Below, piece after piece: positions 6,265 through 54,944 of a stretch of 64,000 nucleotides of DNA. The position numbers were made by a program, and so were the translations under genes. How positions within the stretch are numbered: the stretch's first letter is position 1; each line of letters begins with the position of its first letter. This DNA is from Bacteroidaceae bacterium. GTDB lineage: Bacteria; Bacteroidota; Bacteroidia; Bacteroidales; Bacteroidaceae. Where the stretch lies: the NCBI GenBank assembly GCA_017458585.1, contig JAFTAJ010000045.1, positions 1 to 64,000 of the forward strand. The letters run 5' to 3'. Below the pieces are notes generated by a model, which worked only from the letters and a program-made list of their open reading frames with translations, made no database searches and was not told where the DNA came from.

Positions 6265-8682
6265 ATGAGCGCTTATTTCTTTCTATTCAACGGGCGACGC
6301 GGCGATACCCTGAAGACGCTGGAGAGCCTAAAAGCACAACGGGGACTGGACCACATAGTGGTGCTGCAACCGCGAGGGCTGGCCGACAGCGAGCGTATCG
6401 ACGACCTGACAGACAGCAAGGTGAGCATCGACGAAGTGGAGGACAGTTTCTTCACTGGCGCGGTTATAAGCAAGATATACAGCTATAAGGCTGACTGCTT
6501 CTTCCTCTACACCAAGACGACACCGCTGAAGATGGGCTACCGCGCCGCGGAGCGTATGCTGCAAGTTTGCTGTACGATGGACCAAATGGTGTATGCCGAC
6601 CACTACGAGGTGAAAGACGGGCAGACACTACCCCACCCGCTCATCGACTACCAGCAAGGTAGTGTGCGCAATGATTTTGATTTCGGTAGCGTGATGCTCA
6701 TCAACTCGTGGCAACTGGATGTGAGCGGCTACAAGCATGCCGCCCTCTACCGCATGCTGCTCGACATAAGGAATAAGACACATCTACGCGAGATGCTATA
6801 CACCGAGCAGGAGAGCGACCTGCGCAAGAGCGGCGACAAGCAGTTTGACTACGTGAATCCCGCACAGCGCGAGGTGCAGATAGAGATGGAAAAGGCGTTC
6901 ACCGAATGGCTCAGACAGGAGAGCCTGCTGCTGAGCGACGAAATGATAAGGGATGCGGATTTAGGAGAAAGGAGTAATGGTCAATGTATTGAGGCCAGCG
7001 TTATCATCCCCGTGAGGAATAGGGAGAAAACGATTGGCGACGCCATACGCTCAGTGCTGAGCCAGAAGGCTGACTTCGAATTTAACGTCATTGTTGTAGA
7101 TAACCACTCCACCGACGGCACCTCCGAGGCCATAGAAGCCATTGCCAGCGAGGACAGCCGCGTGGTGCATATAGTGCCGGAGCAGGACGACCTGGGCATC
7201 GGCGGTTGCTGGGACTTGGCCATACGCAGCGAGCAGTGTGGCAAGTTTGCCGTGCAGCTGGACAGCGATGACCTCTACAGCGGCCCCGACACGCTGCAAC
7301 GGATAGTAGATAAGTTCTACGAGACAAAGGCAGGCATGGTGATAGGCTCCTACAGTCTGGTGGACTTTAATCTGCAGCCGTTGCCGCCCGGACTGATAGA
7401 CCACCGTGAGTGGACTGACGAAAACGGCATGAACAACGCACTGCGCATCAACGGCCTCGGCGCACCAAGAGCATTCTACACTCCAATAATCAGAGAGATA
7501 GGCTTTCCCAACACCAGCTATGGCGAGGACTACGCCGTGGGACTGGCCATCTCGCGCAAATATAAGATTGGCCGCATATACGACTGCCTATACCTCTGCC
7601 GCCGCTGGGACGGCAATTCCGACGCAGCGCTTTCGATAGAGAAGGTGAACCGCAACAACGCCTACAAGGACAGCCTGCGCAGCATGGAGATGGACAAGCG
7701 CAAAGACCTCATATTCTGCGGAGGCGCCATCAACCCGAGCACAGGACTCGACGAGTGGCTACAGCTGCAGTGGGACAAATGGCCCGAGGTGAAGCAGCGC
7801 TTCACGGAGCTCGACACTAAGGTAGAGAAGCGCACACTGGACATGGCAGGGGAGACGACACTCACCGTACAGTTTAACCCCGCCCGCATTCGCTCAACAG
7901 CCGCAAAGGTGGATAAGGATAGCATAGCCAAGCGGCAGTGCTTCCTATGCATAGACAGCCAGCCGAAGGAGCAGATACATGTGAACTACAACAGCAGGTA
8001 TCAGCTATGTATCAACCCCTACCCAATTCTGCACCGCCACTGCACAATACCACTCATAGCCCATAAGCCGCAGCTGATGAAGGGACACTTCGACGACCTG
8101 CGTCAGTTGATACATTGGATGCCTAACCAAGCTGTGTTCTACAACGGTCCGCAGTGTGGAGCCTCGGCGCCTGACCACTTCCATTTTCAGGCAGGCAACA
8201 AGGACGAGATGCCACTGCTGCGCGACTTCGACAAATATGAGGAGACAGCCGAGAGACTGGCCGCCGGCATAAAGCTAATCAAAGACTACGTCTGCCCCGT
8301 GCTATGCTGCGAAGGCATTGAAGACCTGGAGATGATGGTAAATACGCTACCCGTGGCAGAGGGTGAGGCCGAGCCTCGCTTCAACATCCTTGCGTGGTAT
8401 GACGACAGCCTAGGAGTCTATAAAGAGACCTACCTCCTCATACCGCGCCGTAAGCTGCGCCCCGAATGCTACTTCGCTGAAGGCGAGCAGAACTTATGCA
8501 TCAGTCCCGGGGCCGTGGATATGGCCGGACTGATTATCACGCCGAGAGAGGAGGACTACCGCCGACTGACTGGTGAACAGGCTGCCGCCATTCTCAGGGA
8601 GGTGACTCTGGGAGAAGAGGAAATAAACAATGTATGTGAAAAAGTTAAAGCCCATGGATCGTGTTCAATGCTCTGTTATTAG
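6265..8682 (+). CDS. Glycosyltransferase family 2 fused to a DUF4922 (HIT/GalT-like phosphorylase) domain
   Basis: An ~805-residue cytoplasmic protein. An N-terminal ~230-residue segment, which I do not recognise beyond some glycosyltransferase-like character, is followed by a GT-A family 2 domain (ASVIIPVRNREKTIGDAIRS around residue 245, metal-binding DSDD around 333). From ~490 to the end is DUF4922. It carries NGPQCGASAPDHFHFQAGN around 630-648, whose HxHxQ signature is that of the GalT / Ap4A phosphorylase / GDP-L-galactose phosphorylase branch of the HIT superfamily. The enzyme may therefore both transfer a sugar and cleave or form a nucleotide-sugar or dinucleotide bond; the substrate is not evident. 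I prefer the ATG at 6265 over 6250, because the five extra codons come from the repeat tract. The end overlaps spoIID by 53 nt. Confidence 0.85.
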   Translation: MSAYFFLFNGRRGDTLKTLESLKAQRGLDHIVVLQPRGLADSERIDDLTDSKVSIDEVEDSFFTGAVISKIYSYKADCFFLYTKTTPLKMGYRAAERMLQVCCTMDQMVYADHYEVKDGQTLPHPLIDYQQGSVRNDFDFGSVMLINSWQLDVSGYKHAALYRMLLDIRNKTHLREMLYTEQESDLRKSGDKQFDYVNPAQREVQIEMEKAFTEWLRQESLLLSDEMIRDADLGERSNGQCIEASVIIPVRNREKTIGDAIRSVLSQKADFEFNVIVVDNHSTDGTSEAIEAIASEDSRVVHIVPEQDDLGIGGCWDLAIRSEQCGKFAVQLDSDDLYSGPDTLQRIVDKFYETKAGMVIGSYSLVDFNLQPLPPGLIDHREWTDENGMNNALRINGLGAPRAFYTPIIREIGFPNTSYGEDYAVGLAISRKYKIGRIYDCLYLCRRWDGNSDAALSIEKVNRNNAYKDSLRSMEMDKRKDLIFCGGAINPSTGLDEWLQLQWDKWPEVKQRFTELDTKVEKRTLDMAGETTLTVQFNPARIRSTAAKVDKDSIAKRQCFLCIDSQPKEQIHVNYNSRYQLCINPYPILHRHCTIPLIAHKPQLMKGHFDDLRQLIHWMPNQAVFYNGPQCGASAPDHFHFQAGNKDEMPLLRDFDKYEETAERLAAGIKLIKDYVCPVLCCEGIEDLEMMVNTLPVAEGEAEPRFNILAWYDDSLGVYKETYLLIPRRKLRPECYFAEGEQNLCISPGAVDMAGLIITPREEDYRRLTGEQAAAILREVTLGEEEINNVCEKVKAHGSCSMLCY

Positions 8683-19584: not shown

Positions 19585-20595
19585 TTAACGGAGACGCTCA
19601 GCCAGTTTCTGCTCTATCTCCGCCATCATCTCGGGATTATCCCTAAGCACAGCCTTCAGCTTGTCGCGGCCCTGCGCTATGCGCTGGCCATCATAGCTGA
19701 ACCAACTGCCCGACTTCTGGATAATCTCGTGCGCCACGCCCAGGTCAGCCAGTTCGCCGGTCTTGGAGATGCCCTCGCCGAAGGTAATCTCAAACTCAGC
19801 CTTGTGGAACGGGGGTGCCACTTTGTTCTTAACCACCTTCACGCGTGTCAGGCTGCCCACCACATCTTCGCCACTCTTAACGCCGGAGACACGGCGAATG
19901 TCGAGGCGCACGCTGGAATAGAACTTCAGCGCGTTGCCGCCTGTGGTGGTCTCGGGATTGCCAAACATCACGCCAATCTTCTCACGCAGTTGATTGATGA
20001 AGATGCAGCATGTCTTGGTCTTGCTGATGGTAGAGGTCAGCTTGCGCAGCGCCTGACTCATCAAGCGTGCCTGCAGACCCACCTTGTTATCGCCCATGTC
20101 GCCCTCTATCTCTGCTTTGGGCGTAAGGGCAGCCACAGAGTCTATCACTATGATGTCCACAGCCGCCGAGCTGATCAGCTGGTCGGCTATCTGGAGCGCC
20201 TGCTCGCCATTGTCGGGCTGCGACACAAGCAGGTCGGAGATATTCACGCCAAGAGCTTCGGCATAGTACGGGTCAAAGGCATGCTCTGCATCAATCATTG
20301 CGGCTATGCCTCCCATCTTCTGCGCCTCAGCCATAGCATGGAGGGCAAGGGTTGTCTTACCCGACGATTCGGGACCGAAAATCTCGATTATACGACCGCG
20401 GGGGTAGCCGCCCACGCCGAGAGCCATATTCAGGCCAATACTGCCAGTGGGAATCACGTCCACCTTCACCGCCGGCTGGTCGCCCAGCTTCATGATAGAG
20501 CCTTTGCCGAAGTCTTTCTCTATCTTGGCCATAGCCGTCTGCAAGGCTTTGAGTTTGTCGTCTCCGCTGTTGGAGACAGGATTTGTTGTTGCCAT
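19585..20595 (-). CDS. recA: Recombinase RecA
   Basis: A 336-residue RecA with all core signatures: Walker [10 protein letters not shown] (~66-74), Walker [11 protein letters not shown], loop L2 region [22 protein letters not shown] and the basic C-terminal domain. The usual acidic tail is short (QKLAERLR ends the protein), so it is slightly shorter than the ~350-residue norm. It drives homologous strand exchange and stimulates LexA-type self-cleavage. A repeat array separates it from pepT upstream, and a structured element lies 44 bp after its stop. No LexA box was recognised in the upstream spacer. Confidence 0.98.
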
Positions 20596-20612
20596 ATCTA
20601 TATGTTATTAGG

Positions 20613-20794
20613 AGTTATCGCTTTGCTCAGAAGTTATCGCAGCTACGCTGCTCGGGAGTTATCGGAGCCTGCGGCTCCTCGAAGTTATCGCGCTTCGCGC
20701 TCGACGTTAATCCTAGGTGTTGTCTTTAACTTCGAGCTTGCGCAGCAAGCGTTAACTTCTAGCCCGCATGCGGGCGTTAACTTCTTTAACTTCT
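20613..20794. repeat. Inverted 10-mer / mini-hairpin array A (pepT-recA junction)
   Basis: The left half has four AGTTATCG units (20613, 20632, 20657, 20683). The right half has four TTAACTTC units (20725, 20752, 20777, 20786), which are nearly the reverse complement. Between units lie small hairpins: GCAGC-TAC-GCTGC (20639-20651), GGAGCC-TGC-GGCTCC (20664-20678), GCGC-TTC-GCGC (20690-20700), GCTTGC-GCA-GCAAGC (20736-20750) and GCCCGC-AT-GCGGGC (20762-20775). The centre reads CCTAGGTGTTGTC. Arrays B (54753-54944) and C (22379-22459) share the core and right arm. Confidence 0.85.
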
Positions 20795-20801
20795 TATTAT
20801 T

Positions 20802-22031
20802 CTACTCATTGTACTTCGCGGTGATGGCGCATATCTGCACGATAGTGTCCATGGCCTTATGCATCGAGGGGATGGGCAGATACTCCAGCGGACCGTGGAA
20901 ATTCATTCCTCCGGCGAAGATGTTGGGGCAGGGCAGCCCCTTGAACGAGAGCTGCGCACCATCGGTGCCGCCACGGATAGGCTGTATCTTCACAGGCACG
21001 CCGGCACGCTCCATAGCCTTGATGGCTATGTCGATGACGTGCATCATGGGCTCCACCTTCTCGCGCATATTATAATATTGGTCTTTCACCTCGGCCTTGA
21101 CCACGGTGCTGCCATACTTCTCGTTTAGTGTGTTGCACACCTCGACAATCTGCTCCTTGCGCTGTTCAAAGCGTTTGCGGTCATGGTCGCGGATGATATA
21201 GCTCAGTTCGGCACGCTCCACATTGCCGCTCATGCCGGTAAGGTGGAAGAATCCCTCGTAGCCCTCTGTCTGCTCGGGTGTCTCGGCCTCTGGCATCATC
21301 GCCACCAGCTCGGCAGCTATGCGCCCCGCGTTGAGCATCTTGCCCTTGGCATAGCCCGGGTGCACACTCATGCCGGTGACAGCTATCTTGGCAGAGGCGG
21401 CGTTGAAGTTCTCGAACTCCAGCTCGCCCACCTCGCTGCCGTCCATGGTGTAAGCCCACTCGCAGCCGAACTTCTCTACATCAAACTTATGGGCACCCAT
21501 GCCTATCTCCTCGTCGGGATTGAAGGCCACATGTATGTTGCCGTGCTCTATCTCGGGATGCTCCATCAGCCAGACCATCGCCTGCACTATCTCTGCGATG
21601 CCTGCCTTGTCGTCGGCACCGAGCAGAGTGTGGCCGTCTGTCACGATGATATCCTCGCCCTTATGGCTGAGCAGCTCAGGGAATGTCTGGGGCGAGATGC
21701 GTATGTCGGCCTCAGCGTCGAGCACTATGTCGCCGCCATCGTAGCACTCCACGATGCGCGGGTTGATGTCGGCGCCTGAGCAGTCGGGGCTCGTGTCCAT
21801 GTGGGCGATGAAGCCAATCTCCGGTGCTTTCTTATTGGTGTTGGCGGGCAGCACAGCATAGAGATAGCCGTGCTCGTCGAGTTCCACATCGTCGAGCCCT
21901 ATGTCCTCCAGTTCCCCTTTCAGGTAGCGGGCAAACGCCCATTGCTTCTCTGTGGACGGAGTCGTCTGGCTGTCCTCCGCCGACTGGGTGTCAAACTTCG
22001 TGTAATTAAGAAATCGTTCTACAATATTCAT
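20802..22031 (-). CDS. pepT: Peptidase T (tripeptide aminopeptidase)
   Basis: A 409-residue cytosolic M20B metallopeptidase. Zinc-binding and catalytic blocks are all visible: [42 protein letters not shown] and the C-terminal [20 protein letters not shown] with MHKAMDT near the end. It removes the N-terminal residue from tripeptides, a fitting last step for peptides brought in by the nearby SusC/D system, although the gene is housekeeping in many Bacteroidetes. It is separated from recA by a hairpin array beginning 7 bp after its stop. Confidence 0.97.
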
Positions 22032-22241
22032 CAGTATCTATTTTTGAAGCCGTTTTTTATTTACGATTTTACGATTTATTTACAATTTAATTATTTAGCT
22101 ATTTGGTTGTTCTGTCACCCCTTCGGGGTTATTTTGGTCTAACGTCTATTGCAGGGGTTTGTTTCCTGCGGAAACTGCACCACCTGCCTGTTATCTGTCG
22201 TGCCTACGGCACTTAACTCTAAATGTTTTTTTATGTTTTTG
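22032..22241. other. Non-coding spacer upstream of pepT with two short hairpins
   Basis: A/T-rich DNA directly upstream of pepT is followed by two mini-hairpins of the type seen in the arrays: GTTTCC-TGC-GGAAAC (22161-22175) and GTGCC-TAC-GGCAC (22200-22212). No gene is supported anywhere in 22032-22462. Confidence 0.5.
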
Positions 22242-22378: not shown

Positions 22379-22459
22379 GTTATCGTTTTCGTTATCGTTA
22401 TCGTCCTAGGTATTGTCTTTAACTTCTAGCTTGCACAGCAAGCGTTAACTTCTTTAACT
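22379..22459. repeat. Inverted 10-mer / mini-hairpin array C (short copy)
   Basis: Three GTTATCG units (22379, 22391, 22397) precede the shared core CCTAGGTATTGTC, the hairpin GCTTGC-ACA-GCAAGC (22429-22443) and two TTAACTTC units. It ends next to the stop codon of the 68-residue gene, the same position relative to a stop as arrays A and B. Confidence 0.75.
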
Positions 22460-22462
22460 TCT

Positions 22463-22669
22463 TTATTTCTTTATCTTTCCACTAATTTTCTTCAGCAGCT
22501 CGGGCTTCAGCTCCAGGGCTTGCTGCAGGTCCTCCCACGCCCCTGGCTTGTCGTTAAGGCGGTAGCGTATCTGCCCGCGCTGCATGAGCAGCTCCGCATT
22601 GTCCGGCTCCTTCTGCAGCTGTAGCGTCAGGTCGGTTAGTTGACGAAAGAGATCCTGCCTAGTCATCAA
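22463..22669 (-). CDS. Small single-TPR-like protein
   Basis: A 68-residue soluble protein with one tetratricopeptide-like helical pair (PDNAELLMQRGQIRYRLNDK, then GAWEDLQQALELKPE) and a basic tail (KKISGKIKK). It overlaps the upstream 72-codon gene by 11 nt, so it is translated with the zeta-kinase operon. One TPR motif is too little for a typical scaffold; it may bind a partner from the same operon. No function can be assigned. Confidence 0.65.
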   Translation of the reverse strand: MMTRQDLFRQLTDLTLQLQKEPDNAELLMQRGQIRYRLNDKPGAWEDLQQALELKPELLKKISGKIKK

Positions 22670-54752: not shown

Positions 54753-54944
54753 GAAGTTATCGCTTCGCTCAGAAGTTATCGAAGTTATCGGAGCCTGCGG
54801 CTCCTAGAAGTTATCGCGCTTCGCACTAGACGATAGTCGATTGATTTGATTGAGGCTGGAGTATTGTCTTTAACTTCGAGCTTGCATAGCAAGCGTTAAC
54901 TTCTAACCCGCTTGCGGGCGTTAACTTCTTTAACTTCTTATTTT
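54753..54944. repeat. Inverted 10-mer / mini-hairpin array B (nuoM-nuoN junction)
   Basis: Four GAAGTTATCG units (54753, 54772, 54781, 54807) face three TTAACTTC units (54870, 54897, 54921) and a fourth partial one. Hairpins include GGAGCC-TGC-GGCTCC (54790-54804, identical to array A), GCTTGC-ATA-GCAAGC (54880-54894) and CCCGC-TT-GCGGG (54907-54918). The centre differs from A but shares the TATTGTCTTTAACTTCGAGC core. Confidence 0.85.

Follow-up and report, generated by a model that had tools for sequence, protein, structure and literature searches.

What is the array of inverted short repeats that fills the gap between pepT and recA in this Prevotella-like Bacteroidales genome, and how did it come to lie there? 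The array (array A, positions 20610-20794, 185 nt) was found in the stretch of DNA that was analysed (the window, 64,000 nucleotides), and the preliminary description could assign it to no known class. Array A is, we consider probable, a MITE-like copy without a gene, derived from a mobile element whose arms elsewhere enclose a gene of the PF05635/TIGR02436 family.

Read directly, array A consists of four (A/G)AGTTATCG units (20610-20691) opposed by TTAACTTC units (20726-20793), with palindromic spacers (GCAGCTACGCTGC, GGAGCCTGCGGCTCC, GCGCTTCGCGC, GCTTGCGCAGCAAGC and GCCCGCATGCGGGC). A repeat finder returned four direct copies on the left, three on the right and inverted pairs between the arms. 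In the transcribed sense (the - strand) the order is (GAAGTTAA...)n, AAAGACAACACC, a short loop, the core and (hairpin-GATAACTTC)n; that is, two oppositely oriented arms built of short tandem repeats (GAAGTTA... versus ...TAACTTC), hairpin spacers and a short inner core (GAC.ATA...TAT.GTC) (Table 1). Of 40 distinct left spacers, 29 contain a perfect stem of at least 4 bp, where shuffling gives 6.6 on average and 13 at most; all 15 right spacers contain one, where shuffling gives 2.6 on average and 7 at most. The predicted fold of array A is more stable than those of shuffled sequences on both strands (z -3.9 and -4.1). On its right, array A ends 7 nt short of the pepT stop codon (20802-20804); on its left, about 15 nt separate it from the recA ATG (20593-20595). 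The facing arrays, the palindromic spacers and the placement just past a stop codon and before recA were all recognised in the preliminary description and are borne out here, as is, at the level of prediction, the branched fold.

Table 1 Positions of array A, its parts, its neighbouring genes and the further copies of its family in the window.
Feature	Position	Strand	Remark
Array A, downstream (3') arm	20610..20701	-	Four AGTTATCG units (GATAACTTC on the - strand) and hairpin spacers
Spacer hairpin GCAGCTACGCTGC	20639..20651		
Spacer hairpin GGAGCCTGCGGCTCC	20664..20678		
Spacer hairpin GCGCTTCGCGC	20690..20700		
Inner core and loop GACGTTAATCCTAGGTGTTGTC	20703..20724	-	Inner-end consensus GAC.ATA ... 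TAT.GTC
Array A, upstream (5') arm	20725..20794	-	TTAACTTC units (GAAGTTAA on the - strand); two hairpin spacers at 20736-20750 and 20762-20775
pepT, upstream co-directional gene	20802..22031	-	Stop 20802-20804; name after the preliminary description
recA, downstream co-directional gene	19585..20595	-	Recognised from the translated sequence
Array B, partial second copy	22380..22463	-	Core plus a TTAACTTC arm that holds one hairpin
Array C, third copy of the array-A family	54753..54940	-	

Array A is not an obvious intrinsic terminator, as no T-run was read after the hairpins in the transcribed direction. A CRISPR array has unique, unrelated spacers, whereas the spacers here are palindromes that recur between loci. 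Rfam gave no match at array A. The one match nearby, to Acido-Lenti-1 RNA at 22188-22213 of the window and 1.4 kb from array A, scored 22.6 bits, below the Rfam cut-off of 37, and is probably due to chance.

Array A belongs to a dispersed family. With up to 3 mismatches allowed, the core TTGTCTTTAACTTC is matched 12 times in the window against 2.9 expected, a number reached in none of 100 shuffles, and the genome holds 17 exact copies. The full-length consensus retrieved 64 pieces, grouped by eye into about 38 loci (copy numbers derive from pattern and BLAST searches). Among congeners, a 17-nt core pattern gave ten matches in G009, one in G013 and none in the other 16 genomes searched. Dispersed copies keep the order of units and spacers; either half may stand alone, and other sequence may separate the halves. 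The preliminary description had offered two ways to overturn its reading, a lack of additional copies and repeats left by slippage with no conserved order. The copy numbers dispose of the first. The second fails since the same spacer order recurs between dispersed copies, but local slippage does also occur, with tandem duplications of 46 nt and 43 nt in other copies of the family. Higher-order units of these two lengths are locally amplified in tandem, and the assembly contigs C28 and C14 end inside arrays (G000:C16:48754-48944, L005:1500-1639 and L287).

The pepT-recA gap is without an array in five related species (G013, G001, G012, G007 and G010), and array A is therefore an insertion. In a further genome, G016, the same gap (L106) carries an unrelated array of GGAATTA and ACTATAGGAACTATAG repeats. 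The site of array C is likewise without array C in G009, G010, G012, G013 and G016; in G013 and G007 it holds gene-less facing arrays of other words, the one in G007 having the same GACGATAG core and a hairpin. Such insertion polymorphism gives good support to the view that array A and its relatives are mobile. The edges of the insertions are AT-rich, and comparison with empty sites revealed no consistent target-site duplication. In G009, AAGCCATTAAGCC arrays lie inside or beside array-A-type elements (L037, L051), and the PF05635 gene L128 has arms of AAGCCATTAAGCC; together these point to nested insertion. While the anatomy and the possible fold in the preliminary description stand, the insertion, the roughly 38 loci and the gene-carrying kin described below were not visible from the one sequence it had.

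The place taken by the inner core in array A holds a PF05635 gene or other sequence in other copies. On contig C28 of the same genome, array-A-type arms directly enclose a PF05635 gene, whose leader is the core GAAGTTAAAGACAATACC. Its product matches TIGR02436 (E 1.8e-30), Avd (1.5e-5) and the structure PDB 2gsc (1e-16), and also PDB 2rld. PF05635/TIGR02436 is the family of 23S rRNA intervening-sequence (S23) proteins, four-helix bundles homologous to Avd. The nearest kin of the C28 protein in other rumen genomes (L148, L149 and L152; 74-80% identical) have arms of the same kind, with hairpins. The C28 copy is the sole gene-carrying copy with array-A arms found in its own genome, and none was found in the incomplete assembly of G009, which has many gene-less copies. 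Being short (about 185 nt), gene-less, dispersed and bounded by facing arms, array A has the general form of a MITE. The C28 copy shares these arms and is a candidate for the autonomous partner, a role of its protein in moving DNA being putative. To our knowledge PF05635 proteins have no assigned function, and we know of no nuclease or transposase activity among them.

By eye, the PF05635 genes of the genus lie between facing arrays of short words, and a general test of the arms agrees. At each of 78 named loci whose flanks were complete, the 160 nt upstream were compared with the reverse complement of the 160 nt downstream. The median score was 22. Dinucleotide shuffles gave 8, and 207 segments taken farther out at the same loci gave 7, with a maximum of 13; 71 of the 78 loci, and 36 of 39 independent sites, scored above every one of the 207 control segments. 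The signal weakens when loci are drawn from the whole phylum, where 11 of 28 exceed every control; PF05635 itself is present in 61 of a phylum-wide sample of 80 Bacteroidota genomes, frequently as multiple copies. Different elements have different repeat words, with the same word in both arms of one element; one word, GAAGTTAA, is common to many named loci. At one orthologous site (29 loci, flanking genes read as etfA and acyl-CoA dehydrogenase) the word varies by species with both arms changing together, an association reached in none of 10,000 permutations, relatedness being uncorrected. Paired positions of the inner core are A-T in 29 cases, C-G in 20 and discordant in 8. For pairs of loci at different sites, the more alike the proteins, the more alike the words (Mantel r 0.48, 0 of 999 permutations). 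The protein is under purifying selection (median dN/dS 0.09, 34 pairs). Among arm mismatches, G.U is not favoured over A.C (152 versus 228), which lends no support to pairing at the level of RNA. Gene-less elements of other words occur in G007 and G013.

Elements sit in the sense of transcription just after a stop codon. With the strand of neighbouring genes called by codon score, the upstream gene was co-directional at all 69 callable named gene-carrying loci (from 78 loci at 39 sites, not all independent), at 20 of 21 in the genus set and at 26 of 29 gene-less copies. Since the upstream gene is nearly always co-directional, the element lies in transcripts in a fixed sense. Some PF05635 elements stand within housekeeping operons and occupy the same site across several species (L118, L119, L121; L120; L162-L226). 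Judged from translated flanks, the operons are apparently those of groES-groEL and of etfA - acyl-CoA dehydrogenase, with sdh as a possible third. Sequence comparison shows the complete element to be an arm, an inner core, a PF05635/TIGR02436 gene, an inner core and an arm, its arms being able to pair into a long stem with the gene in the loop. Elements of this kind insert between genes, just past the upstream stop and nearly always in the sense of the upstream gene, and protein and word move as a pair from site to site.

An alternative is that the arrays are ordinary MITEs or REP-like repeats served by an unrelated transposase, the PF05635 gene of C28 being a chance passenger between two arms. 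This would fit the many gene-less and few gene-carrying copies of the genome, the other sequences that some copies hold between their arms and the presence of a Y1 transposase gene. However, nearly all named PF05635 loci are flanked by facing arrays, of many different words, and protein and word co-vary at different sites; the sole Y1 gene is flanked by another repeat family with no AGTTAWCG nearby, which removes a transposase of the Y1/RAYT kind as the driver, and no Y1 match was obtained in G009 despite its gene-less copies. We regard this explanation as unlikely. A reverse transcriptase acting in trans was also considered as a driver and set aside: RVT_1 was found in 5 of 19 genus genomes, including G000 (one match) and G001, and had no match in the element-bearing G007, G009, G013 and G016, whose assemblies are incomplete.

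Poorer still is the case for a mutational by-product, in which slippage expands words and quasi-palindrome template switching keeps the two sides complementary, with no mobile element involved. The words are short and fast-changing, local tandem duplications exist, the wobble-pair excess is absent, and template switching could also keep complementary arms alike. What mutation leaves unexplained are dispersed copies with the same spacer order, occupied and empty sites, the bias in orientation and the gene inside; we find it quite improbable as a full account, and slippage or template switching may well act on the arms in addition to mobility. Just as hard to credit is a regulatory role, with the elements as host-adapted structures of 3' UTRs or intercistronic gaps (hairpins for processing or stability) kept for gene control and not through selfish spread, for although they lie in sense past stop codons and mostly between co-directional genes, have strong predicted folds and persist at the etfA - acyl-CoA dehydrogenase site in many species, their presence is patchy between close relatives, one site carries different words and the neighbouring genes are many and unrelated.

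Some same-site elements are identical or nearly so between species whose flanking genes are 5-15% diverged. L129 and L139 share about 550 identical nt, reaching just 30-40 nt into each flanking gene, and L120 and L125 differ at three positions over about 630 nt. A gene-less pair at the same site in two species (L001 and L028) shares 285 identical nt, the flanks being otherwise 82-93% identical. In L118 and L119 the reading frame is 99.5% identical and the arms are not shared. These selected pairs look like homing or short-tract recombination and are not the rule: averaged over 462 same-site pairs, conservation is slightly lower in the reading frame than in the flanks. The genus assemblies are fragmented, and the identical tracts could include assembly or binning errors.

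We propose that the PF05635 protein would recognise its own word and would promote the spread of anything bounded by the arms, including gene-less copies such as array A. Short-tract recombination may then carry copies from one related species to another at the same site, in a manner akin to homing. With less confidence, we suggest that the stem might act in the transcript as that of a 23S rRNA intervening sequence does, bound by protein and cut by RNase III; insertion in operons would therefore be tolerated. The data suggest that the PF05635 family belongs to mobile elements between ordinary genes and not only inside ribosomal RNA genes, as earlier described. More tentatively, and with rather less than even confidence, the PF05635/TIGR02436 genes of Bacteroidota could form the core of a widespread class of mobile elements that need no transposase and home to sites between genes. 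Each protein would recognise the facing arrays of its own element and would mobilise gene-less copies in trans, and rRNA intervening sequences would be a special case. An orphan family would become a candidate class of mobile element, characterised by stem-forming, word-matched and sense-oriented insertions. Such elements offer an explanation for hairpin arrays where assemblies break, and through them the working of rRNA intervening sequences and Avd-like proteins can be tested directly.

Known systems resemble array A and its kin in part. The preliminary description knew of no repeat class with this plan, and we found none that fits in the open-access literature, nor a description there of PF05635 genes between facing arrays; subscription papers and preprints lay mostly outside the search and may hold one. 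The TAACTGA repeats of Beggiatoaceae (PMC4679880) have a different word, and S23 or intervening sequences are unmentioned there. PINSR of Prevotella intermedia is an intergenic, non-coding repeat of about 190 nt from a Prevotella group but, judged by its published description, reportedly has no terminal inverted repeats and is present in 177-184 copies (PMC4755523). BrickBuilt, a MITE of Porphyromonas gingivalis in the same bacterial order, is likewise intergenic, multi-copy and modular, with tandem short repeats predicted to form long stems; it differs in having one block of 23-nt repeats between leader and tail and small terminal inverted repeats, and in the parts of that account consulted here facing hairpin arrays and a PF05635 link are unreported (PMC4596501). 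REP/BIME sequences with their RAYT transposases share small palindromes, a frequent position downstream of genes and a miniature transposon model, yet they are GTAG/CGTC-tagged single palindromes (PMC3733652), unlike the long facing arrays here, and the only Y1 transposase gene of this genome has repeats of a different family beside it. That gene (IS200-like; L114:1240-2060, G000:C31 around 6773-7114) has hairpin repeats CCCCTTCGGGG, CCCCTACGGGG and TTGCAGGGGTTTGTTTCCTGCGG on its flanks, and the same hairpin family recurs close to array B, at 22110-22210 of the window. Gene and repeats resemble a RAYT and its REP sequences, here in Bacteroidota.

The protein points to two further systems. Avd of diversity-generating retroelements is a homologous four-helix-bundle protein (PMC10053308), but no reverse transcriptase was seen adjoining the elements, and four element-bearing relatives, in incomplete assemblies, have no RVT_1 match. 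The closest parallel is the rRNA intervening sequence with its S23p gene, for example in Coxiella burnetii, which lies in rRNA helices and is cut out by RNase III (PMC4990558). Both are small elements whose complementary ends can form a stem, with a gene of the same family in the loop; both are sporadic, and intervening sequences are regarded as selfish (PMC4990558). The present elements differ in lying between protein genes and not inside a 16S or 23S rRNA gene, array A between pepT and recA and gene-carrying copies between, for example, etfA and acyl-CoA dehydrogenase or groES and groEL. They differ also in that their arms are tandem arrays of an element-specific word and in having gene-less relatives. 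The complementary ends are present in array A and the PF05635/S23p frame in its gene-carrying relatives, array A itself being gene-less. Array A is best read as belonging, in a gene-less and MITE-like form, to an intergenic counterpart of rRNA intervening sequences.
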